A stretch of DNA of 44,076 bases from Acidobacteriota bacterium. GTDB taxonomy: Bacteria; Acidobacteriota; Holophagae; Thermotomaculales; Thermotomaculaceae. Below the pieces are notes generated by a model. It was not told where the DNA came from, searched no databases, and saw only the letters and a list, made by a program, of their open reading frames with translations. The stretch's first letter is position 1. Each line of letters begins with the position of its first letter. The stretch lies in the NCBI GenBank assembly GCA_013152385.1, contig JAADGL010000018.1, positions 1 to 44,076 on the forward strand, given 5' to 3'. The position numbers and the translations under genes were made by a program. This document shows positions 13,101-42,251 of this stretch, piece by piece.

Positions 13101-13667
13101 TTAATGGCTGCCACACTCCGACTGCCATTGCTGATATCGCCGGTGCCAATCCCGGTTCCACTCACGATACGCCGTTTCCGCATCGTTCAGCTGCTCCCCT
13201 GCCGCCTGACGCTCCGCTGCGGAATGAACATAGCGATAGCCCCAATGCCCGGAACTGCTCCTGCCCCAGCGGGAATGGTGCCCGGGAATCCAGTATCGTT
13301 CCCGCCGCATTGCCTCATTATAGCGGGAACGGGCATTACGAACAGCCTGCTGTAACCGCCCCCCCTCTACCGCCCTCTCCTGCTGAAGGGCTGCCCGCTG
13401 CTGCCGGCATTCGGTATCGGGATTCGGGGCCGGGGGCGGCGGCGTGGGATTCGGCGGAGTCGGAGCCGGACCCGGTGGTGGGGTATCAGGGTCTCCGACC
13501 CAGTCATCAGGGGCATCCCCGTCAAATAGATTGAGCCGGTTGGTTGCCCCGGAAAACAGACTGCGCAGCTCCACCCCAAGCCCCTTGACCATCATCATTG
13601 CGCCTAATGCGACCAAAACGACAATCAAAATATACTCGGTATTGGACGCCCCGGCCTGCCGCCTCAT
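13101..13667 (-). CDS. Pilin-like protein with Pro-rich linker and charged C-terminal domain
   Basis: A 188-residue protein. Residues 2-6 are a very short leader ending in Gly, then ASNTEY begins a hydrophobic helix, so the Flp/type IVb prepilin pattern of Gly(-1), Glu(+5), Tyr(+6) is present. The helix is followed by a short Gly/Asn region, a Pro-rich linker (about 65-85) and a C-terminal half rich in Arg, Gln, Trp, Tyr and His that looks coiled and basic. It is probably processed by the prepilin peptidase of the nearby tad operon and used as a minor pilin or cell-surface adhesin; this is inferred. ATG 13667 is used because GGGGAGGGG lies just upstream; a GTG at 13670 is the alternative. Confidence 0.65.
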   Translation of the reverse strand: MRRQAGASNTEYILIVVLVALGAMMMVKGLGVELRSLFSGATNRLNLFDGDAPDDWVGDPDTPPPGPAPTPPNPTPPPPAPNPDTECRQQRAALQQERAVEGGRLQQAVRNARSRYNEAMRRERYWIPGHHSRWGRSSSGHWGYRYVHSAAERQAAGEQLNDAETAYREWNRDWHRRYQQWQSECGSH

Positions 13668-13684
13668 CACCCCTCCCCGTTTAA

Positions 13685-13744: not shown

Positions 13745-14653
13745 CTATTTGACAATATCCCCCGTCTTGAATCCTTTCCCGCCGACAACGGTACAAATCG
13801 AATACTTTTCCTGCGCGGAAACGACTCTCAACGAGCCGATTTTGGTTTCACTTGCTCCAAGTTCTTCGCCGGTATCGGGATCAATCAAAGCTTCCCCTTT
13901 CCGGTAAACCGTATAACTGTCACCGGTATTTACTCCATTTCGGGCTCCCAGATTTATAAAAACTTTTGAACCGGAAACTTTGATAATTTTTCCTTCCCGC
14001 TTGGTCATCGCAACCGGAGTAATTTTCAGGTCCGCAACCTTACTGGACATTTTCTGCGCCATTTGTTCCACAATGGGCTCGAAAATTTCATTTACCATGG
14101 TTTCATCAAAATCCGTTCCGCCGCCGATAGTGGCAATCCGCAGATTCATGAACTTTTTCTCACCGCTTCCCTTGTCAACATAAACAATCTCGCCGGTATC
14201 GGTCCGAATTAAGCGAATATCCAACCGTCCCTGAAGCTTTTTGTTTTTAAACTTGAACCCGACTTTGAAAAAAGCATCAAAACTCTTTCCCTTGTATGCA
14301 AAACGGGTAACCCTGCCGGTCAGCAAATACTGGACTCCGAGAAGTTTTCCGATTTTAACCGCGGTATCCGGGCTGATATTACCGGACAGGCCGAGATTCT
14401 GCTCCTTCATAATATCCTGCAGTCTTGCCCGCTCAAACACACGGAAATTTCCTTTCTCAACCAGAGCTGTTGTAAACAGATCCACCAGCGCGGCCGAAAT
14501 TTCCCGTTTATGGGGCCGGAAACCGGACCACAAACCCGCACCGTCCACCGGAAAATCAATGATGGCAATTCTGGGCCGATTATCCCCCGCCTTAACGAAA
14601 GACATGCTCCCCGCCACCAGCAATACAAAAAGTACGAAAGCAATTTTCTTCAT
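13745..14653 (-). CDS. CsgG-family exported protein with FlgT-like C-terminal domain
   Basis: A 302-residue secreted protein with a signal peptide (MKKIAFVLFVLLVAG, cleavage near VKAG). There is no lipobox Cys, unlike true CsgG lipoproteins. Residues about 27-200 have the CsgG/TolB-N-like pattern: PRIAIIDF, FRVFERARLQDIMKEQ, then IGKLLGVQYLLTGRVT. The last 80 or so residues (VFINLGARNGVNTGDSYTVY onward) resemble the FlgT C-terminal/SH3-like domain that often follows. Such proteins act in the periplasm or at the outer membrane in assembly of surface structures. The start at 14653 is supported by AAGGAG; an upstream in-frame start would precede the signal peptide. It sits beside a pilin-like gene and the tad locus, which suggests an envelope role. 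Confidence 0.75.
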   Translation of the reverse strand: MKKIAFVLFVLLVAGSMSFVKAGDNRPRIAIIDFPVDGAGLWSGFRPHKREISAALVDLFTTALVEKGNFRVFERARLQDIMKEQNLGLSGNISPDTAVKIGKLLGVQYLLTGRVTRFAYKGKSFDAFFKVGFKFKNKKLQGRLDIRLIRTDTGEIVYVDKGSGEKKFMNLRIATIGGGTDFDETMVNEIFEPIVEQMAQKMSSKVADLKITPVAMTKREGKIIKVSGSKVFINLGARNGVNTGDSYTVYRKGEALIDPDTGEELGASETKIGSLRVVSAQEKYSICTVVGGKGFKTGDIVK

Positions 14654-14683
14654 ACGCGTCTCCTTTCCTGCTTCTGAAAGCTT

Positions 14684-14728
14684 AGTATATCTGCTTCTAC
14701 TGTTTTCCGTGTCAACCTGACCTGACAC
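14684..14728 (-). promoter_or_regulatory. Promoter-like elements with 20-bp spacer and overlapping inverted repeat
   Basis: On the minus strand a perfect TTGACA (14715-14710) and a near-consensus TATACT (14689-14684) are separated by 20 bp, too long for normal sigma-70 use. GTGTCA-N8-TGACAC (14709-14728) is a perfect 6-bp inverted repeat covering the -35 element. This layout suggests a regulated promoter for the CsgG-like gene. Confidence 0.45.
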
Positions 14729-15083: not shown

Positions 15084-15094
15084 GTATTTATCTG

Positions 15095-16144
15095 CTATTT
15101 TGCCAACTTATCCAGCATTTTCTGTGCTTTTCCCTTCGTGTCCGGGAATTGCAACGCCTGTTGAAAGGCAATCCGTGCCTGTTCCGGCTGCCCGGAATTA
15201 AGATAGCTCCATCCCAGACGGTAGCAAATCTCTCCCTCTTCCATCCCAAGGGCCAGGCACCTTTCGTATGCAAATGCGGCATCTTTAAACTTTCCCACTT
15301 CATCACAAACCTTCCCGAAGAGCAGAAAATAATTGCCGGAAAGGTTCGGCAGATCCTTACATTTGTTCATCACCTGAAAAGCTTTCTGAAATTTTGCCTG
15401 TTTGTATAACTCCTCCGCAGTGGTCATGCACACCTGTTTCTGATAATAATTTTCATAATCCCGGCCCATGTCTCCGGACATTTCGTCCAGCATCCGCTGG
15501 ATTTCCGGTTTTTTGTCCGCTTTAACCACATTCAATAATTTTCTCGCGTAATAGTAAGCTTCCAATCTGTTTTTCTCAACTTTCAGGTAACTTTCACTCA
15601 TCCGGGAATAGGCATCGGGCCGTGACGGGTCCAGGTCTATCGCTTTTTTCCACCACTTTCTCGCATCCTTCAAATCTCCCTGCCCCACCAGCAGTTCGCC
15701 CAGGCGGATATACGAAAGATAATCATCAGGATGCTCGCGAATAATGGACTGATACAGCTTTATCGCATCCGGGACTGATTTTAACGAGACCAGATACTCC
15801 GCTTTTAACACCTGAAAATCCAGATTATCCGGCTTTGCCGCAGCTGCTTTCTCAGCAAAGGGATACCCGTCCTTCGGAAGATTTTCTTCCATAAAACTCA
15901 TGGCGGCATGGTAATAGATGTCTGCCGGAATGTTCTTCTTTTTCCTGTTCTTGTCAAAAAACTTCAGATAAAAGGGAATTGCCTTTGCATACTGGTTTTC
16001 GCCATAGTATGCCTCTGCTTTTTTTAAATATTTTTCCCCGTGAAAATTCATGGAAGAAGAAATTTTCTTAAAAATTGATGCATTACCACTGAAAGTTACC
16101 GAGAAAACAAACGTTATTGTAAGAAAAACCTTTATTGTTCGCAA
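15095..16144 (-). CDS. Exported TPR-repeat protein, probable TadD-like pilus assembly factor
   Basis: A 349-residue protein with an N-terminal hydrophobic signal (MRTIKVFLTITFVFSVTF) and then tetratricopeptide repeats along its length, for example AYYGENQYAKAIPFYLKFF, YLSYIRLGELLVGQGDLKDA and CYRLGWSYLNSGQPEQARIA. TadD of other tad systems is a TPR lipoprotein that helps place the secretin. No lipobox Cys is present here, so this would be a soluble periplasmic counterpart. The start overlaps the end of the FHA/TPR gene by 13 bp. It is the last gene of the tad operon. Function is inferred from repeats and context. Confidence 0.7.
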   Translation of the reverse strand: MRTIKVFLTITFVFSVTFSGNASIFKKISSSMNFHGEKYLKKAEAYYGENQYAKAIPFYLKFFDKNRKKKNIPADIYYHAAMSFMEENLPKDGYPFAEKAAAAKPDNLDFQVLKAEYLVSLKSVPDAIKLYQSIIREHPDDYLSYIRLGELLVGQGDLKDARKWWKKAIDLDPSRPDAYSRMSESYLKVEKNRLEAYYYARKLLNVVKADKKPEIQRMLDEMSGDMGRDYENYYQKQVCMTTAEELYKQAKFQKAFQVMNKCKDLPNLSGNYFLLFGKVCDEVGKFKDAAFAYERCLALGMEEGEICYRLGWSYLNSGQPEQARIAFQQALQFPDTKGKAQKMLDKLAK

Positions 16145-18186
16145 TCTGATATCCTCTTTAATGCTTTTTTGTAAAGCGGATCGGTTTTCGGAACCATCTG
16201 AATGACCTGTCTAAAATAAAATATCGCCTGTTTACAGTCATTGTACTGAGTCTGTTCAATATACCCTTTGTTGTACAGCTCCTGGCCCTTATCTTCTATC
16301 TCCATCTTCATTGAAGCGGCTTTCTGAAAACCGGGCTTGGCCTTTAGAATTTTTACAAGGAAATTGTAAGCCGCAGCATAATTTTGTTCCCGGTACAAAG
16401 AGCTTGCCTTGTCCATGTAATAATCTACCATTAAAGCCATGGAATCCTGTTCTACCTTTCCATCTTCTCCATAAAGGTTCTGCCTGGAAATTTCAAACAA
16501 ACGTTCAAACAGCGGTACCGCTTTAGACACTTTCCCCTGTAGTGCCAACTGCTTTCCCTGTTCATAGTTCCGCCTCACTTCGTTCATATATTTCTTTAAA
16601 TGACGAATCCTGGAAGGAATCTTCAGGTTTTTCTCCAGATAGGCATTGGACGCCTGGGTAATACTGGCCAATGCATCTACGATCCGGCCATTCAGATAAT
16701 ATTCCCTGGCCTTTTTCAGTGAAATGGCGGCCTTTCTGTTTGCCGCACGCTGACGTTTCACGTATGCGGTGCGGGCTGCCACACGTTTTTTAAATTTATT
16801 GTATTTCTCCGCCACATCCGAATATTGTTCCTGGACATCCTGATTATCCGGAAATTTCTCTTTCAGAAGAGCTGCCAGTTCGTAGGCGGATTCAAGATCA
16901 CCATCTCCCAGTTTTCCTTCAATTTTCTCTCCCTCATTGTCAATGTAGGAAGATTCCGCAGATTTTAACACCTCATTTCCCTTGGTCAAATAGACGGATT
17001 TTGGATCAATCCGGCTCAACAGATCCCTGGCAGCGCTGAAATCCCCGGACTGAATTTTCTGATTCATTGCAAGAAATTTGCTGCGGTTGGCAATTTCCAT
17101 TTTTGCTTTTTCCAGTTCACTGTCCGCCCCTTTCAACTGAAAACTCTGAATCAGTTCCACAACTTTATCCCAATCCTGGTTTTCCATGGACAGGTGAACT
17201 TCTTTCATGATTTCAGCCCGGGTCAGGCGATTCCCTTTCTGGCCGGGCACCCCACCGGAACCGCCGGAGGGCAGAAGCATCAGAATAATAAGCAGAAACA
17301 ATAGTACACCACCCACAACGATGAGCAGCTTCTTTTTATTGTCAGGGCTACCGGCACTTCCCTTTCCTTCCTTCAGGTCCTCAAAAGAAAATAATTTCCC
17401 CGGTGCCAGATAAACAGCCGACACATCCCCGAATCTTAAAAGATCCCCATGGCGAAGAGCATGCTCCGAAACACGTTTGTCTTTTATAAACAGACCGTTT
17501 GTACTGTTTTCGTCTTCTACTGAAAATGAATTGTCGCCTTTTCGTATCAATCTGGCATGAATACGGGAAATGGAAACATGATCGATTTGGATGTCACTGT
17601 CGGCTTCCCTGCCCACAATCATCTCGCCTTTATCCAGTACAAATTCTTCCGTGGGATTCAGATTGTCGTCAAGAAGAACCAGCCGGGGCGACATCAGGAC
17701 ATTCTTCATCCCGAAAAGGACTGTCTTTTTTGCCGGATTTCTCTCTGCCCCAGAAGTTTTTCCCTCTTCCGATACCGGTGCCACAAGTGGAATATCCGGA
17801 ATCTCGGTCACATCAACCATAACGGTTCCGTTCTCCGGCTCTTCTTCCTGAATCTGCGCCGGTGACGGCGTTTCAGATGCCTCCGACTCACATTCCAGGA
17901 GAAAATCAATTGAACCGAAGGCAATCCTGTCACCACACTCGACCGGAACGCGTTCCGTGAGTTTCTTGCCATTCACAAACACACCGTTGGTGCTGTTCAG
18001 GTCTTCAATGGCAATCACACCATTTTGAAATTCAATCACAGCATGATAGGAAGAAACATTGGGCAACGGGATGGATAAGTCGTTGTCCGGCTTTCGCCCG
18101 ACAGTTAAGCGGCGGTTTTCTTCCGTAAAATCAAAATGGAAACTTTCCCGTATGGATGCACTTAGAGGTTTAAATATTACTTTCAT
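16132..18186 (-). CDS. Double-FHA transmembrane protein with C-terminal TPR-like region
   Basis: A 684-residue protein. FHA domain 1 lies at about residues 22-97 (VGRKPDNDL, SSYHAV, NSTNGVFVNG) and FHA domain 2 at about 185-260 (VGREADSD, SRIHAR, NSTNGLF). Both keep the Gly-Arg, Ser/His and Asn-Gly residues that bind phosphothreonine. The linker between them is acidic and contains Thr sites (NGTVMVDV, KKTVLFG). One transmembrane helix at about 286-305 is followed by a Gly/Ser stretch and roughly 360 residues of degenerate helical TPR-like repeats. The expected topology is FHA domains in the cytoplasm and repeats in the periplasm. The start overlaps the upstream FHA gene by 4 bp. It may link phosphorylation signals to the pilus machine; the exact role is unknown. 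Confidence 0.72.
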   Translation of the reverse strand: MKVIFKPLSASIRESFHFDFTEENRRLTVGRKPDNDLSIPLPNVSSYHAVIEFQNGVIAIEDLNSTNGVFVNGKKLTERVPVECGDRIAFGSIDFLLECESEASETPSPAQIQEEEPENGTVMVDVTEIPDIPLVAPVSEEGKTSGAERNPAKKTVLFGMKNVLMSPRLVLLDDNLNPTEEFVLDKGEMIVGREADSDIQIDHVSISRIHARLIRKGDNSFSVEDENSTNGLFIKDKRVSEHALRHGDLLRFGDVSAVYLAPGKLFSFEDLKEGKGSAGSPDNKKKLLIVVGGVLLFLLIILMLLPSGGSGGVPGQKGNRLTRAEIMKEVHLSMENQDWDKVVELIQSFQLKGADSELEKAKMEIANRSKFLAMNQKIQSGDFSAARDLLSRIDPKSVYLTKGNEVLKSAESSYIDNEGEKIEGKLGDGDLESAYELAALLKEKFPDNQDVQEQYSDVAEKYNKFKKRVAARTAYVKRQRAANRKAAISLKKAREYYLNGRIVDALASITQASNAYLEKNLKIPSRIRHLKKYMNEVRRNYEQGKQLALQGKVSKAVPLFERLFEISRQNLYGEDGKVEQDSMALMVDYYMDKASSLYREQNYAAAYNFLVKILKAKPGFQKAASMKMEIEDKGQELYNKGYIEQTQYNDCKQAIFYFRQVIQMVPKTDPLYKKALKRISDCEQ

Positions 18187-19121
18187 TTCAGTTTTGCCAT
18201 CCTAAATGCTGCTGTCCGGTAAATCATTGAAGATTCATCCGGAACCATTGCTTCAATTGTCTGATAAAATTGAATCGCACTTTCATTATCATTTTCACTT
18301 TCCGCCATCCAGGCCTGCTGAAACAATTGTTTCAGTTTCTTTTTCAACTGCTGTTCGGTCTGAGCAATTTTCGGATTCAGTTCATCCCAGAGTGCCGGCT
18401 TCGGCTCAATGCCCATGATACTGCCTTTGGCACGGTAAAAATACAATAGCGCCGTAAATGCGGCATCATAATTTACTTTGGCCATTTTTAGTTTTTCTGT
18501 TCCGAGGTTGTAATAGGATTGCCCCTGCGCCAGATTTTTTTTATCATCTATTTTGTTTCGAACCTGCTGTTCCAGTTTCAGAAAATAAGTGTTGAGCATT
18601 CCCGCCCGTAAAGGTGCCTGGCCTTTCTTCCCGGCATTGCCCGAAGGTAGCAGCGCTAAAATCAGAAGGATTAAAACCAGCCCGATGGCAACACTGCCAA
18701 TCAGAATCTGACGTTTCGTGAAGGGAAGCTTCCCGCCACGGGCCGCATTCAAATCTTCCCTTGAAACCATCATTGTTTTGTTTCCGCCAACTTCTTCAAC
18801 TTTGTTACGGGCGAAATCAGTCCCTGCCGTATCCGTGTAGACAACAATCTTATAATTGCAAAAAGAAATTTCGGATTTATTTCCCAGTAAAACAGCGGAT
18901 GAAAGCGGTTCTCCGTTGAGAAATGTTCCGTTAACACTGTTTTCATCCTGAACATAGGGCTTTCCTTCCTGCTCAAAAATTGTCAGGTGCCGGGAAGAAA
19001 CCATGGGGTCATTGATAATCAGGTTACAGTCCGTTCCTCTGCCGATGACCATTTTCCCACCGGTCAGCTCCAATTCCCGCTCTTTCTTTTCGCCCACATA
19101 AAAAACAATTCGAATACTCAT
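18183..19121 (-). CDS. FHA-domain single-pass membrane protein of the tad operon
   Basis: A 312-residue protein with an FHA domain at about residues 20-95 (VIGRGTDCNL, SSRHLTIFE, NSVNGTFLNG). A linker with the possible target Thr116 in NKTMMVSRED follows. There is one transmembrane helix at about 139-158 and a C-terminal helical region of about 150 residues. The layout matches the next gene, with FHA inside, a single TM (LLPSG at its end in both) and an outer helical domain. The two are probably paralogous partners. Overlap with the next gene is 4 bp. No kinase is found in the window. Confidence 0.72.
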   Translation of the reverse strand: MSIRIVFYVGEKKERELELTGGKMVIGRGTDCNLIINDPMVSSRHLTIFEQEGKPYVQDENSVNGTFLNGEPLSSAVLLGNKSEISFCNYKIVVYTDTAGTDFARNKVEEVGGNKTMMVSREDLNAARGGKLPFTKRQILIGSVAIGLVLILLILALLPSGNAGKKGQAPLRAGMLNTYFLKLEQQVRNKIDDKKNLAQGQSYYNLGTEKLKMAKVNYDAAFTALLYFYRAKGSIMGIEPKPALWDELNPKIAQTEQQLKKKLKQLFQQAWMAESENDNESAIQFYQTIEAMVPDESSMIYRTAAFRMAKLK

Positions 19122-19138
19122 TTGAAGTGATTATAATC

Positions 19139-19477
19139 CTATTGCGAAATTCGTTCAAGTGCTTTGTTTTCTTTTATGAGTCCGGTCCCCTCAACTACCG
19201 CCCACGCACCCGGACAGGAGAAAAAACGATAGGGCAAAACCGTTTTCTCTTTCAATACCCGTCCCTCCCGGTCAACAAAAATAACATCAATGGCAAATGC
19301 CATAAAAAAAGTATGAATAGAACTGCACGGAACAATCCGGTAAACCGCATCGGTTTCAGTTCTTACACCCAACATCCCCCTCGCCCGGGTCCACAGCGTG
19401 TGACAGGAAACAAGAGGACGCTCCACAAAGCTCCCATCGCTGTAATACACAATCACCGAATCCTCATTCACCGACAT
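19139..19477 (-). CDS. DUF192 family protein
   Basis: A 112-residue protein matching DUF192. It shows ARGMLGV near residue 32, the central SSIHTFFMAFAIDVIFVD (family pattern SFWMxNTxxPLDxxF) and a typical ending VVEGTGLI. The biochemical function of the family is not known. It lies between tadC and the FHA gene with gaps under 30 bp, so it is part of the tad transcript. No signal peptide is seen, although many DUF192 members are exported. Confidence 0.8.
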   Translation of the reverse strand: MSVNEDSVIVYYSDGSFVERPLVSCHTLWTRARGMLGVRTETDAVYRIVPCSSIHTFFMAFAIDVIFVDREGRVLKEKTVLPYRFFSCPGAWAVVEGTGLIKENKALERISQ

Positions 19478-19504
19478 TTCCCCTTTTCCGGCTGCATCGA
19501 AAAA

Positions 19505-20419
19505 TCAGAACAGCTCTCCCCGTGTCCATTTCACAATTATACCGCCGAACAGAATCAAAATTGTTGAAAAGAGAATAAACACAAGGGGAAACATGATTTT
19601 AACAGATGCCTCCCCGGCCGCCTTTTCAGCTTTCTGGGAACGGGAAATCCGCAGGGATTCCGCCTGAACCTTCAAAACCTGTGCCACCGGTGTTCCCATT
19701 TTTTCCGCCTGCACAATAGCGGAAACCACACTGTTTAATGCTTCAACACCCGCACGGCGTGCCATGTCATTCAAAGCATCCCGTTTGGTCTTCCCCATTC
19801 GGACTTCCTGCAGAAACTGGAAAAATTCCTCTATCAGCGGACTCCCGGTTGTGTCCCGATCCACCATTCTGCGAATAGCAGACAGAAAATCCATTCCGGC
19901 CTCAACCGCCATGGTCAGTACATCCAACTTATAAGGCAAGTCTTTATAAATGGCGATTTTTCGCATATCCGATTGATTGGCAAGAAAAAAATAGGGAAAA
20001 ACATTGCCAAACACAAAAGCCAGCAGGAGAAAAACCGGATTGGCACTGCCTGTCATGGAATAATTGAAAAAGGCAGCAAAAAGTGTAATCAAAATCGAGA
20101 CCATCCCGGTAAAACCGATAAATTCATACGGGGTGAAGCCATACGGATACCCTGCAGATTCAATCCGCCGGGTTAACATTGTAATGTATTTTTCCGGAAT
20201 CCGCATCTGCTTCGCTTTTGCCGCAAACATCAGGGTCAAAGGATATGTCACCCGGATAAATGAATTTTCCTCGAAAATCTGCCGTTTTTTGTTCTCAAGA
20301 TGACCGCCGGGAAGACTCAATTTAAACTCTTCCACCTGCTTTTCCGATGGCAGAAATGAGTAAACCAGAATAAAGAAGGCAAAGAAAAACAGAATATAGC
20401 CGCCAAGTTCATAAATCAC
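19505..20419 (-). CDS. tadC: Tad pilus inner-membrane platform protein TadC
   Basis: A 304-residue protein of the type II secretion F (GspF) family. Hydrophobic segments lie at the N-terminus, in the middle (about 105-150) and at the C-terminus. The central cytoplasmic part has the family pattern LTMAVEAGMDFLSAIRRMVD followed by EVRMGKTKRDALNDMARR. With TadB it forms the platform on which the CpaF ATPase drives pilin assembly. It is 9 bp after tadB, in the order cpaF-tadB-tadC usual for tad loci. Confidence 0.9.
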   Translation of the reverse strand: MIYELGGYILFFFAFFILVYSFLPSEKQVEEFKLSLPGGHLENKKRQIFEENSFIRVTYPLTLMFAAKAKQMRIPEKYITMLTRRIESAGYPYGFTPYEFIGFTGMVSILITLFAAFFNYSMTGSANPVFLLLAFVFGNVFPYFFLANQSDMRKIAIYKDLPYKLDVLTMAVEAGMDFLSAIRRMVDRDTTGSPLIEEFFQFLQEVRMGKTKRDALNDMARRAGVEALNSVVSAIVQAEKMGTPVAQVLKVQAESLRISRSQKAEKAAGEASVKIMFPLVFILFSTILILFGGIIVKWTRGELF

Positions 20420-20428
20420 AGCAGCCCC

Positions 20429-21289
20429 CTAAATATCAATATTAATGACTTTACGGATCAGATAGATACCGATCAGCCAGAAGATTGCCGCGACAAAGAG
20501 AATCGCTGTCCCCTGCGGCGTATTAAACAGCGGTTTCATCAGTTCAGGGTTAATCTTGGACAGAATCGCTGCCAGAAAAAACGGCAGCCCGCCCAGAACA
20601 ATGGATTGCATCCGGCCCTGAGCGGTCAACGCCTTCACCTTTGCCTCCAAACGCATAATTTCTTTAATGGACAAAGCCAGAGATTTAAAAATCTCCGCGA
20701 TATTTCCACCGGTCTGCCGGGCAACGAGAATGGACGTGGTCATCAAATCAAAGTTATTGGATTTCAAACGAGCCGCCATATTTTCCAATGCCTGATCAAA
20801 AGGAACACCCAGGCGAACTTCATTCACCAGAAGCCCGAACTCCTGAGAAACCGGCGGCACCAGCTGCTTTGTCACCACCTCGCAGGCCATGGGAAGGGTT
20901 AACCCCGCTGAAACGGAATTTGACATCACATACAGGGCATCCACCAGCTGCAATTCCAATTTTTCCGCCCGCTTTTTAATTGAGAGTTTTAAAGACAGCT
21001 TGGGAAGATAATATCCGGCCGCCCCGAAAAGAAGCATAAATAAAACGCTGTCGGTCCAGAGATACCCCACAGCCGCCAAACCCACCATTGCCAGCATGTT
21101 GTTTCTGAAAAAACGGTCCGGGGAATACGGCATGAAGTTTTTTTGCAGCTCCCCGCCGATTTTTTTGTCATAAGACTGACGATAGCGCGTATATCCCAAC
21201 TGAACCGCTTCAAACATGGCATATCCAGCCCATCCGAGTCCAACCGCAATCAGGATATAGGACAAAATGTATAAAAGAGTGTCCACCAT
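20429..21289 (-). CDS. tadB: Tad pilus inner-membrane platform protein TadB
   Basis: A 286-residue GspF-family membrane protein. It has an N-terminal hydrophobic helix, a helix pair near residues 65-90, the cytoplasmic family block VMSNSVSAGLTLPMACEVV with VNEVRLGVPFDQALENMA, and two C-terminal transmembrane helices. It pairs with TadC as the assembly platform. It lies 3 bp after cpaF and 9 bp before tadC. Confidence 0.9.
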   Translation of the reverse strand: MVDTLLYILSYILIAVGLGWAGYAMFEAVQLGYTRYRQSYDKKIGGELQKNFMPYSPDRFFRNNMLAMVGLAAVGYLWTDSVLFMLLFGAAGYYLPKLSLKLSIKKRAEKLELQLVDALYVMSNSVSAGLTLPMACEVVTKQLVPPVSQEFGLLVNEVRLGVPFDQALENMAARLKSNNFDLMTTSILVARQTGGNIAEIFKSLALSIKEIMRLEAKVKALTAQGRMQSIVLGGLPFFLAAILSKINPELMKPLFNTPQGTAILFVAAIFWLIGIYLIRKVINIDI

Positions 21290-21292
21290 AGC

Positions 21293-22945
21293 CTACACCT
21301 TGAAAAGGTCTTCCGGCACTTCGATGCCCCGTGCCTTGAAATCTGCCAGAAAAGACGGCAGGTAACCGGTTGCCATGTGTTTTCCCACAACTTTCCCTTT
21401 GGCATCCACGCCTTTTTGCTCAAAGGTAAACACATCTTCAAGAAGGACGTTGTATTCATCGTCCAGGCCCAGAACTTCCGAAATCTTCATAATTTTACGG
21501 GAACCGTCCGAGAGCCGGGACTGCTGGACAATAATGTCAATGGCTGAACCGATCTGATCCCGGATCGCCCGAATCGGCAGATCCATCCCGGACATCAGAA
21601 CCATGGTTTCCAGACGCCGGAGAATATCCTCCGGAGAGTTGGCATGACCGGTAGTCATGGAACCGGCATGACCGGTATTCATGGCCTGAAGCATGTCCAG
21701 AGCTTCCCCGCCCCGGCATTCACCGACAATAATCCGGTCCGGGCGCATACGAAGCGCGTTCTTTACCAGATCCCGAATTGTAATGGCGCCCTTCCCCTCA
21801 ACATTTGCCGGTTTGGACTCCAACGTCACGACATGGCGCTGTGGCAATCGCAGTTCGGCCGCGTCTTCAATGGTAATAATCCGGTCATCGTGCTGGATAA
21901 AAGAAGCAATCACATTCAACAGGGTTGTTTTACCGGAACCGGTTCCACCGGAAATTATGATATTCTTCTTTCCCTTTACACAGACTTCCAGAAACTTTGC
22001 CATAGCCGGACTCAACGTACCGAATCCGATCATGTCATCAATTCCAAGGCGTTTGGTTCCGAACTTCCGAATTGTCAGGCACGGCCCTTTCAATGCCAGC
22101 GGCGGAATAATTGCGTTAACACGGGAACCATCTTTCAAACGTGCATCAACCAGCGGTGAAGACTCATCAATCCGCTTCCCGATGGGAGCCACAATCCGTT
22201 CAATAATCGCCATTAAAGCCGGATCGGATGAAAATCGTTTTTTGGATTCAACCAGCTTTCCCTTCTTCTCCACATAAATCAAATCTTTGGAAATCACCAT
22301 AATTTCACTGACATCTTCATCCCGGAGAAAATCTTCCAACGGCCCCAGGCCCACCACCTCATCCTGCATTTCCTTTTTCAGAGCTTTTCTGTCCACCCAT
22401 TTCGGAATCGCCGCACTCATCTGAGAAAGAATCATATCCAGCCGTTTACTGACCAGATCACTGAGTTCCTGGTCCCGTTTTGCCGTAAAATCCACCCAGC
22501 GGAGATCCAGAGTCTCAAGAAGACGTTTATGAATCTGATCCCGAATTCCCGACAAAGCATTCAATTGTTCTTCGCTGAATTCAGTTGTACTTTCGGATGC
22601 CTTTTCCACAACCGGTTTGTCCGCTTCAATCACTGCAGACTGTTTTTTCATCCCCTGATCCGCTTCAAAAACAAGGGCATATTCCCCGATAATCACCGGC
22701 TTACCCGGCTGTACCGGGGTCTGCTTATTCTTTTCCAATCGTACTTTGTCAATAAACACGCCGTTGGAGCTGGTGTCTGTAACCCAGACACGGCCATCCT
22801 GTATCTGAAAAACCGCATGGCGCCTGGAAATAATGGTAGAAGGCAGAACGACCTGGGCCGGAGCTTCCCGGCCCACCACGAACTCCGCAGGAATGGACTT
22901 GAGTTCCTTCCGGGTCCCGTCCTTGCCTACGATGGTTAATTTCAT
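21293..22945 (-). CDS. cpaF: Pilus assembly ATPase CpaF/TadA with an N-terminal FHA domain
   Basis: A 550-residue secretion ATPase. Residues about 1-95 are an FHA domain (VVGREAPAQ, SRRHAVF, SSNGVFIDK), a fusion absent from classical CpaF. After a linker, the CpaF part contains DVSEIMVI, the Walker A SGGTGSGKTT, the Asp box ITIEDAAEL, the Walker B region RPDRIIVGECRGGEALDML and the His box TGHAGSMTTGHANS. It powers Flp pilus assembly from the cytoplasm. The fused FHA domain could recruit the ATPase to phosphorylated partners such as the two FHA membrane proteins; that is inferred. The start overlaps the cpaC stop by 4 bp. Confidence 0.9.
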   Translation of the reverse strand: MKLTIVGKDGTRKELKSIPAEFVVGREAPAQVVLPSTIISRRHAVFQIQDGRVWVTDTSSNGVFIDKVRLEKNKQTPVQPGKPVIIGEYALVFEADQGMKKQSAVIEADKPVVEKASESTTEFSEEQLNALSGIRDQIHKRLLETLDLRWVDFTAKRDQELSDLVSKRLDMILSQMSAAIPKWVDRKALKKEMQDEVVGLGPLEDFLRDEDVSEIMVISKDLIYVEKKGKLVESKKRFSSDPALMAIIERIVAPIGKRIDESSPLVDARLKDGSRVNAIIPPLALKGPCLTIRKFGTKRLGIDDMIGFGTLSPAMAKFLEVCVKGKKNIIISGGTGSGKTTLLNVIASFIQHDDRIITIEDAAELRLPQRHVVTLESKPANVEGKGAITIRDLVKNALRMRPDRIIVGECRGGEALDMLQAMNTGHAGSMTTGHANSPEDILRRLETMVLMSGMDLPIRAIRDQIGSAIDIIVQQSRLSDGSRKIMKISEVLGLDDEYNVLLEDVFTFEQKGVDAKGKVVGKHMATGYLPSFLADFKARGIEVPEDLFKV

Positions 22946-24165
22946 TTTTTATTCCTCTGATACCATTTCTTTTTCTCTTTGTTAAACTCCTGCAGAGGTT
23001 TGTCAATCATCTGTTTATTTTCCTGGCTGTCCGCGGTAATCCGCTTTGCCGTGATGAACACCACCGCATCGGTTCGGCCGTTCTGGTACTGTTTGGACCT
23101 AAACAGCGCGCCAAGGACGGGAACACTGCCGATTCCCGGAACTTTGGAAACATCTTCGCTCTTGATTCGTTTAATGAAACCGCCCAGCGCAATGGTCTGC
23201 CCTTCTTTTATCCGGACCGAAGTCTTAATCTTCTCGGTTTTCAGGGAAGGCACACCGTTACTCATCACACCGGCAAGAGAGGAAATTTCGGCATCAATCG
23301 TAATCCGCATATTCCCGAGACTGTCAATCTCCGGCGTCACATTAAACTTTGTGCCGTATTGCTTCCATTCCACCGTGGACGTCTGCTGCGTAATGTTCCG
23401 CACCCCGAATTCACCGCCCGCATAATAGGTGGCCGGCTTTCCGGCAATGGTAATCACTTTGTGTGTATCATAAACCCGTGCGTCTCCGTTCCCCACCATC
23501 AGACTCAATGCCTTGGCAAAATTGGAAACGATTCCGAGGGTGCTCCCCATTACCGCACCGGTAACCAGATTCTTCTGATAGTTGTAATTAACACTGAGTC
23601 CATGAATGGCTTTATCCCAATTGATGCCGTAATCGCCTTTTTTCTGGTTGGATACTTCCACAACATTAAATTCCACCAGGATGTTGTCTTCCTTGGGCAG
23701 ATACGCCTGCTTGAATTCAGCGAATTTCACCACCTGGTCACCATAGAGACTGATTACCTTGTTGATCCGGTCATTGTCGTTTTTTGTGAGAATCTGCCCG
23801 TCAATAATCACCCGGTCTCCGACAACCTTCAGCTTAATCCCTTCAATACCTGCCAGGAGCGAGGCAACTTCCGATTTGATTTTATTTGGATCTTTTGCAA
23901 TTACCGTAACCATATATGTCTGGGTGGCACCGTTTTTCATAATCAGGCTGACCTGGGTGGACCCCACTCCCACCGCCCGCAAAATAACTTTGGACTGATC
24001 TTTGGGAATGGAAATCGCCACCACAGAGGGGTTCCCGGCAGAAACGGAAGTCACACCGGCCCCGCTCAAAACCTTCTGCTGCCCCAGTGCCAGAGTAATA
24101 TCTTCCGCCATACCCAGCATTGAAAAACTCAATGCAATTACAACCAATAGAATTATTCGTTTCAT
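22942..24165 (-). CDS. cpaC: Tad pilus secretin CpaC/RcpA
   Basis: A 407-residue outer-membrane secretin with a signal peptide (about residues 1-20, ending LGMAE). The N-terminal CpaC domain (LALGQQKVLSG, GVGSTQVSLI) is followed by a BON-like segment (VVGDRVIIDGQI). The secretin core ends in the conserved VRIKEGQTIALGGFIK, then VPVLGALFRSKQY and VFITAK. It forms the outer-membrane gate for the Flp pilus. It is 11 bp downstream of cpaB. Usually cpaE/tadZ follows cpaC; here cpaF follows directly. Confidence 0.92.
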   Translation of the reverse strand: MKRIILLVVIALSFSMLGMAEDITLALGQQKVLSGAGVTSVSAGNPSVVAISIPKDQSKVILRAVGVGSTQVSLIMKNGATQTYMVTVIAKDPNKIKSEVASLLAGIEGIKLKVVGDRVIIDGQILTKNDNDRINKVISLYGDQVVKFAEFKQAYLPKEDNILVEFNVVEVSNQKKGDYGINWDKAIHGLSVNYNYQKNLVTGAVMGSTLGIVSNFAKALSLMVGNGDARVYDTHKVITIAGKPATYYAGGEFGVRNITQQTSTVEWKQYGTKFNVTPEIDSLGNMRITIDAEISSLAGVMSNGVPSLKTEKIKTSVRIKEGQTIALGGFIKRIKSEDVSKVPGIGSVPVLGALFRSKQYQNGRTDAVVFITAKRITADSQENKQMIDKPLQEFNKEKKKWYQRNKK

Positions 24166-24176: not shown

Positions 24177-24986
24177 TTATTTTAGAATTTCAATTTTCCC
24201 ATGGCGTTTTCTATTCATTGCGTCCCTGCGCTTCTGCATTGCGGCAAGGCTTGCTTTCCCAAAGATACTGCCGAAATCCACCTGTGGGATTTTTTCTTCG
24301 GATTTCTGATCCTCCGCATTTCTGAGCACAAAAATCAGCTTCGTTTTGCGCCGGGCAAACTCAATCAATTCCGCCTCTTCCGGGGTAACGGAAAGCGTAA
24401 TGGACCCATAATTTTTCTGCATTCTCTCCTGCCGATTTGTCCCGATTCCAACCTGACTGCCAATGGCCAGTACCGGAACCGCCTGAAGAATGGTCAGGGT
24501 GGTCTGAATCGGCACAGTTCCCGGTTTCAGGAAAGTGCCCAGAATATCCACATAATCGCCGGGCCGAATCAGGCCCGCCACACTGGACTCCTGATCCACC
24601 CGAACCGTAATTGCCCGTTCTCCGGGAAGAATCGCGGAAGAAAGAAAGGATGATGTCAAGCCGCCCGCCACGCCGGCCTTGAAATATGACATCAAAATAG
24701 GATCCCCTCTTTTGATATCTACTTTTGCCGAGTTTCCGATAATCTGGGTCAGGGCACTCACTTTGATCGCCCCTTTGGGCAGGTATTCTTTGTACAATTT
24801 TTTTGCCGCGAGCATTCCCTGGTCAATGGGCGTACCGGCCGGAATGTTCTTCTTCGCAATAAGTACATTGGCCAGCATGGATGCATCCGTATACTTCTTC
24901 TTTTCACCGCTGACCATCAGCTGAATCAGAATCACACCGACAACCGCCAGTATAATGGCAAAAATCATTGCCTTCTTCTTATCCAT
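24177..24986 (-). CDS. cpaB: Flp pilus assembly protein CpaB/RcpC
   Basis: A 269-residue protein with one N-terminal membrane helix (about residues 8-25). A SAF domain (VLIAKKNIPAGTPID) and the RcpC/CpaB domain (ERAITVRVDQESSVAGLI, RPGDYVDILGTF, ILQAVPVLAIG, TLSVTPEEAELI) follow. CpaB supports the secretin in the periplasm. It immediately precedes cpaC as in most tad loci, and follows the unknown membrane-anchored gene after 20 bp. GGAGGGG lies before the start. Confidence 0.92.
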   Translation of the reverse strand: MDKKKAMIFAIILAVVGVILIQLMVSGEKKKYTDASMLANVLIAKKNIPAGTPIDQGMLAAKKLYKEYLPKGAIKVSALTQIIGNSAKVDIKRGDPILMSYFKAGVAGGLTSSFLSSAILPGERAITVRVDQESSVAGLIRPGDYVDILGTFLKPGTVPIQTTLTILQAVPVLAIGSQVGIGTNRQERMQKNYGSITLSVTPEEAELIEFARRKTKLIFVLRNAEDQKSEEKIPQVDFGSIFGKASLAAMQKRRDAMNRKRHGKIEILK

Positions 24987-25006: not shown

Positions 25007-25975
25007 TTATCTATCTTTTTGTATCTGCTCTATCATGGTTACCAGTGTCGTTCCTTCCGATGTCCTGCCAAAAAGCACGGTCAACAGCCTCGGCCCTCTG
25101 GACGCGAAAATCGTATTGCTGTATCCGGCACGCTGTGCCCCCTTCCGCGCGGCATCGGGAACATCCCAACCGTTTCCCAGAAGATCGGAAAGGTAGTAAT
25201 CATGGGTACTGGACACCGTATCGTCAACCGCATAAATCATTGTGGCCGCCGTCCCGAAATCATCGGCCTGCCGCATACAGAGAAGGCGCTGGGAATAGGG
25301 GTGGCGATCCACATCATCCAGATCTTCCCCCGGAACATCTTCTCCGTTTTTCGGAAACAGCTTCTCCAGTTGAAACGGCCCTTCCGTCCAATAGCGGATT
25401 ATTGTGGTTTTGTCCGAATCAGGGTCCTCTTTCATTGCAACCACGGCTTTTCCGATCACAGTATCTCTCAAATTTCCTTTTTTAATAAACCACTTCTCAT
25501 TATCTCCTCTGTCAAGGACACCGAGAAAGCCGTAGGAAGGCCCCTCTTTCACAAACACAGGTGCGCCGCTAAGACCGACTACCCGTTCAAATCCTTCGAG
25601 AAGTCTGGCTGCCTTGCTGCCGGGGACAAATCCGATTTCCTTCATCTCCTTATCCGGAATCATACGAATTCTTTCCGGCATATACAATTTTTTGTAAAAT
25701 GAAATCACATCGTGAATAGACGCATGGACCACTTCAGCCGAATAGGCAAAGCGCTGGCCATTTACAAAGGTATGGCCAAGGGCACCGATTCGCCCGCCTT
25801 CACGAAAATCAGGCATTCCTTTGGCAGGCCCTTGCATAAGTTCATACACATCCGCTTTCCCCTTCTGTTCCAGAGCAGAAAAACGGGAGCCAACCCAGAG
25901 AACCGCAATAACAACAGTGCATGTTAATCCGATACGAAATAATTTTATGCCGATTTCTCTGACATTAAGACCCAC
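25007..25975 (-). CDS. Unknown membrane-anchored protein in the tad operon
   Basis: 322 residues with no family recognised. A single hydrophobic helix at about residues 12-31 (IGLTCTVVIAVLWVG) would place the remaining 290 or so residues in the periplasm. That region is mixed alpha/beta, acidic near the middle (EDVPGEDLDDVDRH), and has few cysteines. GTG 25975 is the chosen start because it follows GGGGGA and overlaps the tadE end by only 11 bp. A longer open frame runs upstream to 26077 over tadE in another frame and is unlikely. Position between tadE and cpaB suggests a periplasmic assembly or pseudopilus-associated role, but nothing proves it. Confidence 0.55.
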   Translation of the reverse strand: MGLNVREIGIKLFRIGLTCTVVIAVLWVGSRFSALEQKGKADVYELMQGPAKGMPDFREGGRIGALGHTFVNGQRFAYSAEVVHASIHDVISFYKKLYMPERIRMIPDKEMKEIGFVPGSKAARLLEGFERVVGLSGAPVFVKEGPSYGFLGVLDRGDNEKWFIKKGNLRDTVIGKAVVAMKEDPDSDKTTIIRYWTEGPFQLEKLFPKNGEDVPGEDLDDVDRHPYSQRLLCMRQADDFGTAATMIYAVDDTVSSTHDYYLSDLLGNGWDVPDAARKGAQRAGYSNTIFASRGPRLLTVLFGRTSEGTTLVTMIEQIQKDR

Positions 25976-26528
25976 TGAAAATTCCCCCGATTTTCGACGC
26001 AATGACTCCCCAGAAACTGTGATCTCCCAACTCTTTGTACGACCATGCATTGGTATCCACCACACAGGCGGACGCAATATTTGTCTTGTCTCCCAGAGTT
26101 GATTTTAAATAAGGACTAACCGTAATCGGATAAGACACGGCATAGCCTTTTGAACTGCTCAGGGTATCCATAAACCCCATGAGGCCGGAAGCCATCCCTC
26201 CGGAATCGCCTCCGCTGCCCGAGCGGCTTGATCCGGTATTGTACAAATCCATCGCCTGTGCGGATGAAACTTCCGTAACTTTAACTTTATCTCTGTCCAA
26301 TCGGCCGAAAAAATAGTTTTTCACTTTTTTCTTCAGTTCCGCTTCCGTAGAATTCCGATATCCCTTTTCCCACGCCGCAAACCTTGACGCAGAAACCGTC
26401 TGCTGTTGTGCGAAATAGGCTTTCGCGAAAAAAATAAGGCCGAATGTCAAAAGCAGATAGATGGGCAGAAACATCGCAAACTCTACCAGTGCCTGCCCTC
26501 TCTGATCAGTGAATAATGAATTTGTCAC
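25965..26528 (-). CDS. tadE: TadE-family pseudopilin-like protein
   Basis: A 187-residue protein. The N-terminus has RGQALVEFAMFLPIYLLLTF, the TadE motif, with a Gly, Glu(+5)-type site and a long hydrophobic helix. The rest is periplasmic and contains a Ser/Gly-rich stretch near residue 105. TadE proteins are processed by the prepilin peptidase and support pilus assembly. GTG 26528 is preferred since GGAGGAGG is 5 nt upstream; another GTG at 26552 is in frame. It overlaps the tadG-like gene by 23 bp. Confidence 0.78.
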   Translation of the reverse strand: MTNSLFTDQRGQALVEFAMFLPIYLLLTFGLIFFAKAYFAQQQTVSASRFAAWEKGYRNSTEAELKKKVKNYFFGRLDRDKVKVTEVSSAQAMDLYNTGSSRSGSGGDSGGMASGLMGFMDTLSSSKGYAVSYPITVSPYLKSTLGDKTNIASACVVDTNAWSYKELGDHSFWGVIASKIGGIFSGS

Positions 26529-28446
26529 TGAAACCTCCTCCCCCCAGCGCACTCAGAGCACCGAGAAACCCGCCGGAACTGCCGCCGGTCCCCTCTCCTG
26601 TGGTGGAACTCATGCTGCTCATGGAAGAACTGTTTATACCATTCGTAATTTCACTTAATTTGTTAAACTTCACCAGACGCACCCGCCAGCACTGATTAAA
26701 CAAATGGGAAAACGCGTGGTTTGCCGTATATACTTCCGCCTGGGAAAAATAAATCATCCCGATGGGGTTGGGATTCTTCAGATAGCGGCCGGACAGCACG
26801 TGAGGTTTCGGCTTCAAATAAACAATTCCCACAAAATCTTCATGTTTTTCCCAGTATTCCTTGCCATCTTCCTTGTCCCGCTTCAAGAGATAGGGCTTGG
26901 GTTTATCACTGTCCGATGTATTGCCCCAGGATTGTCCCGGAGTCACATGGTCTGTTTTTGTATATTCACAGGAAGAAAGTTTTGTTTCCGTAACTTTGCA
27001 GATTTTAATCGGTATAATATGGCCGTGTTTATCCCTCTGACGCTGGGTCTGGGGAGTTGCGTCGTCGTACAACCCTTCTTCATACGTGGTCGTATAGCAG
27101 GAAACCGTGCGTTCCTTACAATCCGAACCGAGGTAATTCAGCATATTTCTTGCCGCATCTCCTGTTTTTGTTTTACTGGATCCCTCATCGTACAGAACTT
27201 CGTCTGTTCCGGGATGTTTCACCACATCATAACCGTAAATGGTAACTTCCCCGTTTTGTGTTTTTTTGCTGCCCCGTGGCTCACATCGGCTGTCTTCATC
27301 CGGCCCGCTGCACTGATGAAACTTAATCACATCTCCCATGTCCATCGTCTCCGCCTCATGCTTTGACCGCTTGGTTTTAATCACAGATGTTACAAAAGTT
27401 GCTTTTTTCAGCTTATTCCGATGACTGTAACAAACACTGCACTTGTCCGAGGTCTGATCATAATTCACATCCCCCGTTTTTCCCTCACACATGGATTGAT
27501 AGGTGGCCTCCACCACCGCGTCAAATGTGAGCCCGATCATGGGATAGACAATTCGAAGAGCCGGATAAGGTGTGAACGCTTTGAAATACCCGTTGAATCC
27601 GCCGAGGGGCGCGGGGCCAAAAGTACCCCCCAGAGTCAGAATACCGAGAATGGACCCGAACGTACCGGAACTTCCCATATAGCCGGTGGTGGGAAGGTGC
27701 TGAATTGTCTGTGCCCCATGCCCCGGAACATCCAGTTTGGCATCATGGGCCGGTTTGCAGAGATTCTTAAAATCGCGCTTATTATCGTCAATAAAAGGCA
27801 GTTTTAAATCCACCATAGGAATCATCGGATAGAGGAATCCGAATGTGGCTTCATTGGCAATCCCGATTCGAATCGACTCAATCTGAGCAATGAAGGGAAT
27901 TACATCCACAATTACGGTTTCTCCTTTTGATAACGCCTTTTCCAGCTGCCATAATATACCATTGCCGTCATTATCCAGGGTTTCCCGTAACTCCTTCATA
28001 ACATCTTCAATACCCTCATTTATGATATTGCCGCCTTCTACATAAACATTCAGTACCGCTCCGGCGGCAGCGGTAAAGGGGAAAGCTGTCAATGCATCCG
28101 CAACTGCTTGTAATGCAATCAAAATTCCCTTCGCAATCTGATAGGTCCTCTCCGTTGATTTGATCAGAATAATAATCGCCAGAATCTGGGTTTCCGCCAC
28201 ATTCATCATGGCAATGGTGTTGTGCCCCCTTGCCATCCAGGTGGCACCGGACACCGCTACCGCGTCTGCGGCTGTCACCATCCGCATTTTTTTAGACGTC
28301 ACATCCCCGGTGTTGATGACCATAAACACAAACAGCACCACAAAAAGAAGGGTCAGTGCCACAAAAACAATGGACTGTCCCCCTTCATTTTCATGAAATC
28401 CCCGAATCCTGCTGATAAACAGATTATTTCTCTTTTGAGTTATCAT
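26506..28446 (-). CDS. TadG-like pilus-associated protein with a Cys-rich periplasmic region
   Basis: A 646-residue protein. The start ATG 28446 overlaps the previous stop (ATGA). The N-terminal GGQSIVFVALTLLFVVLFVF and AADAVAVSGATWMARG match the TadG/TadE-like N-terminal region (putative Flp pilus-assembly TadE/G family). A second hydrophobic stretch lies near 105-165. Residues about 330-520 hold a dozen or so cysteines, many in close pairs (KCSVC, CSGPDEDSRC, CKERTVSC), suggesting disulphide-linked structure outside the cell. The C-terminus is Ser/Gly/Met-rich. TadG usually carries a von Willebrand A domain; I could not see one here. It is probably a cell-surface or tip component. Confidence 0.65.
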   Translation of the reverse strand: MITQKRNNLFISRIRGFHENEGGQSIVFVALTLLFVVLFVFMVINTGDVTSKKMRMVTAADAVAVSGATWMARGHNTIAMMNVAETQILAIIILIKSTERTYQIAKGILIALQAVADALTAFPFTAAAGAVLNVYVEGGNIINEGIEDVMKELRETLDNDGNGILWQLEKALSKGETVIVDVIPFIAQIESIRIGIANEATFGFLYPMIPMVDLKLPFIDDNKRDFKNLCKPAHDAKLDVPGHGAQTIQHLPTTGYMGSSGTFGSILGILTLGGTFGPAPLGGFNGYFKAFTPYPALRIVYPMIGLTFDAVVEATYQSMCEGKTGDVNYDQTSDKCSVCYSHRNKLKKATFVTSVIKTKRSKHEAETMDMGDVIKFHQCSGPDEDSRCEPRGSKKTQNGEVTIYGYDVVKHPGTDEVLYDEGSSKTKTGDAARNMLNYLGSDCKERTVSCYTTTYEEGLYDDATPQTQRQRDKHGHIIPIKICKVTETKLSSCEYTKTDHVTPGQSWGNTSDSDKPKPYLLKRDKEDGKEYWEKHEDFVGIVYLKPKPHVLSGRYLKNPNPIGMIYFSQAEVYTANHAFSHLFNQCWRVRLVKFNKLSEITNGINSSSMSSMSSTTGEGTGGSSGGFLGALSALGGGGFSDKFIIH

Positions 28447-29543
28447 TCCGCCTTCATCTCCACATGCATGGTACATTCCGCCTGAAGTTCAAAGACATAA
28501 CCGGCGGAAATGCTGGTATCGTGTTCAATGAGATTCGTTCCAAACAGGTCAGGCAATTTGTCCAAACCTAATTTTTCAAACAGACTCCATCCGAACCGCT
28601 TTCCCATAAACGCATTGGCAATGGGAATTCCCAGATGGAAAGCATGGATTACCCGGACAGTGACCACTTTCCGTCCGTATGTTTTGTCTGTTGTAATCGG
28701 GTCAAAATTATCATCAAGGAGCTGAATCTGCGTAAAAAAGTACGAATAAATATAGCGGTCAATGGCAGTAGCCGCGTAATTTCCAAGGTCACCGGAACCG
28801 AACACACCGCCGATTGCATTGAATACCGAACCCACCGCACCGGTGATCGTACTCAGGCCCGTCGCCGCCCATTGCAAGGGGCTGAATGAATGCCCCATCA
28901 CCGTGACGGTAAACTCATTCATAATATTGCTGGCATCCGCGGAAATCGGCATGCAGGTAAGCCGTGCAGCATTTCGAATCATGTTCAGCTTTCCCTTTTT
29001 GTTCTTATAAATCACGACCCCTTCCGGCTCGTTCTTATCGTTGCTGTCCTGTTTATCCAGGGAAATGGGAATAATCACCGCTGCGGCACGGGCGGCAGAA
29101 AATGCGGAATAATTCACCACTAACCTCGCGGTGTATATCAAGCTCAACTGCATGAGACAGAGCGTTATAAACAATAGGATTGGAAATGAGATAATGAATT
29201 CGGTCATCGCCTGGCCGTCTTCATCTCCGCCGACATCTTTCAGGCCCCGCTTTGCTCTTCTTGATGCTTTGAATGTAGAAAAAAGAATAATCATCAGAAT
29301 GACGATACAGGCAATTGCCAGTAACATCGGCCCGGACAACTTCAGCTTTGAAGCGGTACCGGTCTCGGCAATCAGATCACGGGATGCCATATCCCGGCCC
29401 TGATCAATGGACTCTATTGATTGTTCAAACCCTTTTTTCAATATGTGGGTCCGATAATAGTATGTGCCGATTATTGCAACAACGGCAACAATCACAAGAA
29501 TGATAATATATTCAAACCCCGCGCCGCCTTTCTGTTTTTTCAT
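28443..29543 (-). CDS. Fusion of a Flp-type pilin N-terminus with a TadE-like protein
   Basis: 366 residues. The start MKKQKG/GAGFEY shows a prepilin site with Gly6(-1), Glu11(+5) and Tyr12(+6), followed by a helix of about 20 hydrophobic residues as in Flp. A hydrophilic segment (about 32-66), a second membrane helix (about 70-88) and a basic loop follow. Then GQAMTEFIISFPILLFITLC (about 110-130) is a TadE motif with its own Glu(+5) site, and a periplasmic TadE-like region of about 230 residues follows. Pilin-like and TadE modules are normally separate genes. The start overlaps cpaA by 4 bp and the end overlaps tadG by 4 bp. Confidence 0.7.
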   Translation of the reverse strand: MKKQKGGAGFEYIIILVIVAVVAIIGTYYYRTHILKKGFEQSIESIDQGRDMASRDLIAETGTASKLKLSGPMLLAIACIVILMIILFSTFKASRRAKRGLKDVGGDEDGQAMTEFIISFPILLFITLCLMQLSLIYTARLVVNYSAFSAARAAAVIIPISLDKQDSNDKNEPEGVVIYKNKKGKLNMIRNAARLTCMPISADASNIMNEFTVTVMGHSFSPLQWAATGLSTITGAVGSVFNAIGGVFGSGDLGNYAATAIDRYIYSYFFTQIQLLDDNFDPITTDKTYGRKVVTVRVIHAFHLGIPIANAFMGKRFGWSLFEKLGLDKLPDLFGTNLIEHDTSISAGYVFELQAECTMHVEMKAE

Positions 29544-39068: not shown

Positions 39069-39070
39069 CA

Positions 39071-42250: not shown

Positions 42251-42251
42251 A

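Follow-up and report, generated by a model that had tools for sequence, protein, structure and literature searches.

The FHA-bearing Tad operon

The window analysed here is the whole stretch of 44,076 nucleotides from an Acidobacteriota bacterium (assembly GCA_013152385.1, contig JAADGL010000018.1), and its minus strand carries a run of Tad genes that extends from about 30127 (CpaA) to 13101 (a pilin-like gene), of which the segment 15095-22945 covers only a portion (Table 1). Matches to T2SSE, T2SSF (two genes) and Secretin in Pfam, together with peptidase and pilin-like genes recognised by sequence and profile, identify the system as a Tad (type IVc) pilus. From cpaC to the TPR gene, adjacent genes either overlap by 4-13 nt or are separated by gaps of 3-27 nt, and the run therefore looks like a single operon. 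The gene order, which the first-pass annotation had proposed to trace in other genomes, is preserved in relatives of the same genus and family to the limits of their contigs.

Table 1. Genes of the Tad run and one further operon, with window positions and the basis of each assignment
Feature	Position	Strand	Basis and remarks
CpaA/TadV prepilin peptidase	29540..30127	-	Direct sequence reading; profile matches in other Tad loci
Two pilin-like hydrophobic segments, possible pilin-TadE fusion	28443..29543	-	Direct sequence reading; relatives in L040, L087
TadG-like protein	26506..28476	-	Direct sequence reading; weak profile matches in other Tad loci
TadE-like pseudopilin	25965..26552	-	Direct sequence reading; weak profile matches in other Tad loci; start codon uncertain (overlaps next gene)
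356-aa protein	25007..26077	-	No Pfam match; BLAST matches in L040, L087, L105, L053
CpaB	24177..24986	-	Position; own profile matching CpaB genes beside other cpaC/cpaF; without Pfam confirmation
CpaC secretin	22942..24165	-	Pfam Secretin 120 bits; end overlaps cpaF start by 4 bp
FHA-CpaF, Tad motor ATPase	21293..22945	-	Pfam T2SSE 200 bits, FHA 53 bits
TadB, platform protein	20429..21289	-	Pfam T2SSF
TadC, platform protein	19505..20419	-	Pfam T2SSF
DUF192-like protein	19139..19477	-	Pfam DUF192, under curated cut-off; frequent among the Tad loci compared
Single-FHA single-pass membrane protein	18183..19121	-	Pfam FHA 61 bits; TM segment; model; linker conservation
Double-FHA single-pass membrane protein, KilD-like	16132..18186	-	Pfam FHA, two stretches, 135 bits total
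TPR protein (TadD-like), N-terminal signal-like segment	15095..16144	-	Pfam TPR families; 13 bp overlap with double-FHA gene
CsgG-family protein, 3' of TPR gene	13745..14728	-	Pfam CsgG 90 bits; kept in relatives' genomes
Pilin-like 189-aa protein	13101..13670	-	Direct sequence reading; no Pfam match
RND-type efflux operon (adaptor, pump, outer-membrane factor), same contig	37881-43667	+	Judged by eye

According to BLAST, the 356-aa protein is shared with FHA-Tad loci of Myxococcota and deltaproteobacteria. The gene with two hydrophobic segments apparently joins a Flp-like pilin to a TadE-like part.

The first-pass annotation described four FHA domains in three proteins of the operon, and all of these score well above the curated Pfam FHA cut-off of 20.7 bits. 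In CpaF, the FHA domain is N-terminal (aa 22-91, window 22673-22882) in a protein without a TM segment or a TadZ domain, and the order of FHA domain, poorly conserved linker and ATPase core (Pfam FHA and T2SSE) makes it a class III CpaF. The single-FHA protein presents its domain at aa 24-92, followed by a linker with invariant G113, N114 and T116, one strong hydrophobic segment at aa 139-157 and a helical C-terminal part, and the double-FHA protein carries FHA domains at aa 27-95 and 189-256, with a disordered linker (103-163) between them, a single strong hydrophobic segment at aa 287-305 and a helical/TPR-like C-terminal part. The phosphothreonine (pThr) pocket residues GR, SxxH and NG, which had been reported as intact, are indeed present in all four domains, and across the window's family none of the 30 FHA domains (9 from CpaF and 21 others) has lost the pocket Arg or Ser.

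A structural check of the FHA fold, which had been called for, was passed by both membrane proteins, for which AlphaFold returned FHA folds, a disordered linker, a TM helix and a helical repeat (mean pLDDT 80.6 for the double-FHA protein). The closest solved structures to these models include the pThr-binding FHA domains of GarA, OdhI, FhaA and Ki67. YscD and PscD are also among the matches; in each of the three proteins, however, the score of the FHA model is above that of YscD and the pocket is intact, so that YscD-type ring proteins of type III secretion are not their best match. The pocket residues of all four domains and the fold of the two membrane proteins are those of canonical pThr-binding FHA domains. 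From the single TM segment and the models, we infer that the FHA side is cytoplasmic and the helical/TPR-like part outside, in agreement with the topology first suggested.

The double-FHA protein looks like a relative of KilD, of the Kil system of Myxococcus xanthus, judging from a sequence comparison made with the KilD-position proteins of Citreicoccus (L063) and Myxococcus (L064). These are its best BLAST matches outside the family (E 9e-13 and 3e-12, respectively), with about 25% identity that lies largely in the FHA domains, and they are also matched by a profile of the part that follows the FHA domains. KilD has been termed cytoplasmic in the Kil papers (PMC8460266, PMC12075869); a strong hydrophobic segment is found in the KilD-position relatives as well as in the protein of the window. 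With an N-terminal FHA domain on CpaF and a double-FHA, KilD-like gene beside the motor, the operon is of the Kil-type FHA-Tad kind.

The observation of an FHA-wired Tad operon is therefore confirmed, and what did not hold is the suggestion that this concentration of FHA domains is unusual. Among 80 named CpaF loci (L numbers), FHA-CpaF occurs together with single- and double-FHA proteins in L054, L059, L086, L088 and L091 (Lentisphaeria/Victivallales/Verrucomicrobia and a related bacterium), and Myxococcus L064 and Citreicoccus L063 combine FHA-CpaF and a double-FHA protein with an additional FHA protein that has no TM segment. In L078, L094, L098 and L118, mostly from Bdellovibrionota, single- and double-FHA genes accompany a CpaF without FHA. 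In an even draw of Myxococcota, an FHA gene lies 3' of CpaF in 30/30 of the loci listed, with two FHA domains in 28 of these and a gene cut by the contig end in the other two. An exceptional concentration was thus rejected, since similar sets recur in other phyla.

The genome of the window has 12 FHA domains in total, eight of them outside the operon. One belongs to a second FHA-CpaF paralog (L031, 13359-14816), which lies outside the Tad operon and beside a type IV pilin-like gene (15065-15511), and FHA-bearing paralogs of this kind are also present in related genomes.

FHA and TadZ on the CpaF motor

No TadZ/CpaE, the MinD-like hub by which Tad machines are recruited and positioned elsewhere, was found in the operon of the window, and this absence is a feature that the first-pass annotation overlooked. 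As the end of cpaC overlaps the start of cpaF by 4 bp, there is no tadZ/cpaE gene between them, and a search of the window's genome for a TadZ-like gene gave no match at E<=1e-15, the grade that was set for TadZ. The same holds across the loci compared, where FHA-CpaF and TadZ/CpaE are mutually exclusive: among 218 CpaF loci, 124 have FHA without TadZ, 80 have TadZ without FHA, 14 have neither, and none has both. When the named loci and the window's family are considered, TadZ is present in 0/47 loci with FHA-CpaF vs 40/42 loci without FHA, either as a separate gene or as an N-terminal fusion to CpaF; the FHA-less loci without it are L090 and L106, and L106 is truncated by the end of its contig. 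Additional draws from four groups (Burkholderiales, Myxococcota, Pseudomonadales and Planctomycetota) yielded 77 loci with FHA only, 28 with TadZ only, 12 with neither and none with both, in flanks of about 1.5 kb that may miss a distant TadZ, and mainly from best-matching loci, except in Burkholderiales. Where a genome with FHA-CpaF does have a TadZ-grade gene, that gene is followed by another CpaF, which has no FHA. Matches of ParA/MinD grade are present in many of the FHA-CpaF genomes. No report of this exclusion was found in a search of mostly open-access literature.

The TadZ-CpaF fusions, which measure about 720 aa and carry an N-terminal MinD/ParA-like domain, occur in L062, L065, L071, L078, L098 and others (Omnitrophota, Bdellovibrionota), and both of those scanned with Pfam matched MinD/ParA in one part and T2SSE in another. 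In the tree of 91 rows, the motors with a separate TadZ are parted by one branch (98/98) from the FHA-CpaFs and the TadZ-fused CpaFs. The first to branch off (98/82) is a fusion group mostly from Bdellovibrionota; the fusions of Omnitrophota adjoin the FHA motors in a region where the branching order has no resolution. Given that the FHA-CpaFs group with the fusions, FHA and TadZ share the same N-terminal place, and we prefer to read them as alternatives at this place on the motor. The motor of the window groups with CpaFs of Myxococcota and deltaproteobacteria (99/93).

In the tree of 218 motors, all 124 FHA-CpaFs lie inside one clade of 128 (support 92), and the other four members, which have lost the FHA or keep only remnants of it, also have no TadZ. 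The exclusion is thus essentially one evolutionary split, so that contingency p-values overstate the evidence, and the direction of the switch is not given by the tree, as it is unrooted. Repeated independent switches between FHA and TadZ were considered and rejected on account of this split; the independent-pairs test had no power.

Phosphothreonine pockets, kinases and linkers

The pThr pocket of the CpaF FHA domain is unevenly kept, the Arg and Ser being retained in 9/9 sequences of the window's family, 28/29 of Myxococcota and 3/23 of Planctomycetota, and in 0/14 and 0/13 of Burkholderiales and Pseudomonadales, respectively. In the latter two orders the role of the domain is therefore not canonical pThr binding. 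Among the named loci, an intact CpaF pocket is accompanied by a partner FHA protein in 12 cases and stands without one in 5, vs 2 and 19 for a degenerate pocket (p 1.5e-4, uncorrected for kinship), so that survival of the pocket is tied mostly to the presence of partner FHA proteins. A docking on pThr in the lineage of the window, with a phosphorylation-independent role of FHA elsewhere, fits this distribution.

The search for Ser/Thr kinases and phosphatases, which had been proposed as a check, returned 12 Hanks-type kinases and one PP2C-type phosphatase in the genome, and none of the Hanks-type kinase matches lies on the contig of the window. The first-pass annotation had suggested that ATPase recruitment or pilus activity may be under Ser/Thr-kinase control, and this stays plausible: the intact pockets and the enzymes encoded in the genome stand, and the phosphosite and the kinase that would act on this operon are conjectural. 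Kinase genes are found in 7/38 FHA loci vs 0/42 others (p 0.004, confounded by taxon). In L117 (13551-16438), a Hanks-type kinase gene overlaps the gene of an FHA membrane protein, and in L075 (7883-11396) another follows such a gene about 10 nt on its 3' side, both recognised as Pkinase by Pfam; these two kinases are candidates for the missing kinase link. Elsewhere in the genome of the window (L036, 6864-9760), the gene of a Hanks-type kinase shares 4 bp with that of a coiled-coil-like FHA protein.

As for the possible targets, the linkers of the membrane proteins include invariant Thr islands (T116 in the single-FHA protein; T121 and T155 in the double-FHA protein), which we take to resemble the OdhI/GarA phosphoacceptor motif. 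The enrichment of Thr among the conserved linker positions is not significant (P 0.23), and the linker threonines as phosphosites therefore remain only a lead. A Thr motif is kept or repeated in Myxococcus relatives and absent in other Myxococcota. The double-FHA protein of L202 has three copies of such a motif (TRAxPxxG or near) in an otherwise low-complexity linker between its FHA domains, and other Myxococcus relatives have a single copy.

A further FHA protein of the window's genome (L032, 8179-9093) joins FHA to GGDEF in the layout known from DgcB of Bdellovibrio, and two adjacent Thr residues (DTTD) lie close to its N-terminus; the FHA domain of DgcB binds DgcB's own phosphorylated N-terminus (PDB 6hc1).

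A TadZ-less machine and its possible mode of docking

It is proposed, at what we judge to be even odds, that the window encodes an FHA-type Tad machine related to the Kil system of Myxococcus, without TadZ, whose CpaF is recruited through pThr docking on FHA membrane proteins. A platform at the inner membrane would be formed by the single-FHA protein and the larger, KilD-like double-FHA protein, and the N-terminal FHA domain of CpaF would sit where related motors carry the fused TadZ domain. A Hanks-type kinase encoded elsewhere would phosphorylate threonines, perhaps in the linkers of the membrane proteins, and the binding of FHA to pThr would then bring CpaF onto the platform and license pilus assembly, with the phosphatase reversing the docking. 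The parts of this proposal that we infer are the takeover of TadZ's job by FHA, the triggering by phosphorylation, and the identity of the kinase and threonines involved. It draws on the 0/47 FHA-CpaF loci with TadZ, the 30/30 pockets of the family and the link between intact pockets and partner FHA proteins, as well as on the kinase genes that overlap or abut an FHA gene in L117 and L075, the need for KilD in killing, and the Fha-TssL pair of the T6SS. It is weakened by the single split of the tree, the pocketless domains of Burkholderiales and Pseudomonadales, the contig without a kinase, and the linker Thr statistic.

Taken across the clade, the boldest reading, to be held tentatively and at somewhat under even odds, is that one group of Tad machines swapped the CpaF-fused TadZ for FHA at the same place, replacing a self-organising ATPase with docking on an FHA-membrane platform, which would be pThr-dependent in the Myxococcota-like lineages and the window's family. 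FHA might instead have replaced TadZ only as a scaffold, a structural adaptor independent of phosphorylation such as the FHA fold of YscD in type III secretion; its retention on CpaF despite the loss of the pocket, a loss that is complete in the draws from Burkholderiales and Pseudomonadales and affects most of those from Planctomycetota, and the YscD and PscD matches favour this, but the pockets kept throughout the window's family, the higher scores of the FHA model and the retention of pockets alongside partner FHA proteins argue against it, and we consider it rather unlikely.

It is improbable, to a further degree, that the FHA of CpaF is an added regulatory switch, with the task of TadZ performed by another MinD/ParA-like protein encoded elsewhere or unneeded, and with the exclusion a chance by-product of the spread of a single ancestral machine. 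The single split and the ParA/MinD-grade matches agree with this, and the four FHA-clade members that have lost FHA or retain remnants of it, and have no TadZ, are neutral, but the FHA clade groups with fusions that bear TadZ at the very place of FHA. FHA domains might also have piled up in a genome that is simply rich in them, without any specific part in controlling the pilus, as the eight domains beyond the operon might suggest, but this can hardly be reconciled with the conservation of gene order and pocket residues in the family, nor with the similar arrangements in other phyla, and is given very little credence.

If the swap of TadZ for FHA is correct, a TadZ-less clade that extends over several phyla would mean that one machine can be placed in two ways, despite CpaE having been termed "ubiquitous" in Tad systems, where the model has it forming a ring that encircles CpaF (PMC13170226), and TadZ having been described as a polar hub for the recruitment of further Tad components (PMC6668835). 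As a group, the FHA/Kil-type Tad machines have the look of a Tad variant that does without TadZ, which suggests that protein phosphorylation, rather than TadZ, governs the placing or the activation of the pilus, and which could account for the many FHA proteins of the Kil clusters of Myxococcus, whose pilus assembles upon prey contact. With the Tad system of Caulobacter (PMC13170226), the operon of the window shares CpaA, CpaB, CpaC, CpaF, TadB/C and pseudopilins, and differs in lacking CpaE/TadZ, in place of which it has an FHA domain on CpaF and membrane proteins with FHA.

FHA-CpaF itself is already known, both as class III and in Kil. Class III CpaFs, described mostly from betaproteobacteria as an FHA domain, a disordered linker and an ATPase, in an account from which TadZ and partner FHA proteins are absent (PMC12019362), share their domain order with the CpaF of the window, whereas the pocket is lost in the betaproteobacterial (Burkholderiales) sequences (0/14) and intact in the window. 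In the T6SS, the pathway of PpkA, Fha and TssL has Fha binding pThr of the inner-membrane protein TssL (PMC3953482), so that an FHA domain reads pThr on an inner-membrane component and assembly follows, as proposed here; it is, however, another machine, and the operon of the window has no kinase gene.

The closest comparison is with Kil, for which an FHA domain fused to KilF and an over-representation of FHA proteins have been reported (PMC8460266), with kilD directly 3' of kilF, and with KilD, which clusters upon prey contact, needed for killing (PMC8460266, PMC12075869); TadZ/CpaE is absent from the account of both papers. Shared with the window are the FHA domain at the motor N-terminus, several FHA proteins in the cluster and a double-FHA protein, which at the KilD position of Myxococcus relatives resembles that of the window, and no TadZ-grade gene was found in the Myxococcus genome searched. 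On the other hand, the Kil genes are split into two clusters, whereas the window has one operon that includes TadB/TadC, TadD, CpaB and pilins; the window has a single-FHA membrane protein, whereas in Myxococcus (L064) the additional FHA protein lacks a TM segment; and prey killing is known for Kil, whereas the system of the window is known here from its genes alone. Finally, an additional CpaF-like ATPase without FHA lies within the FHA-Tad loci L040, L045, L053, L086, L087 and L117, and Kil has been described with a single ATPase.
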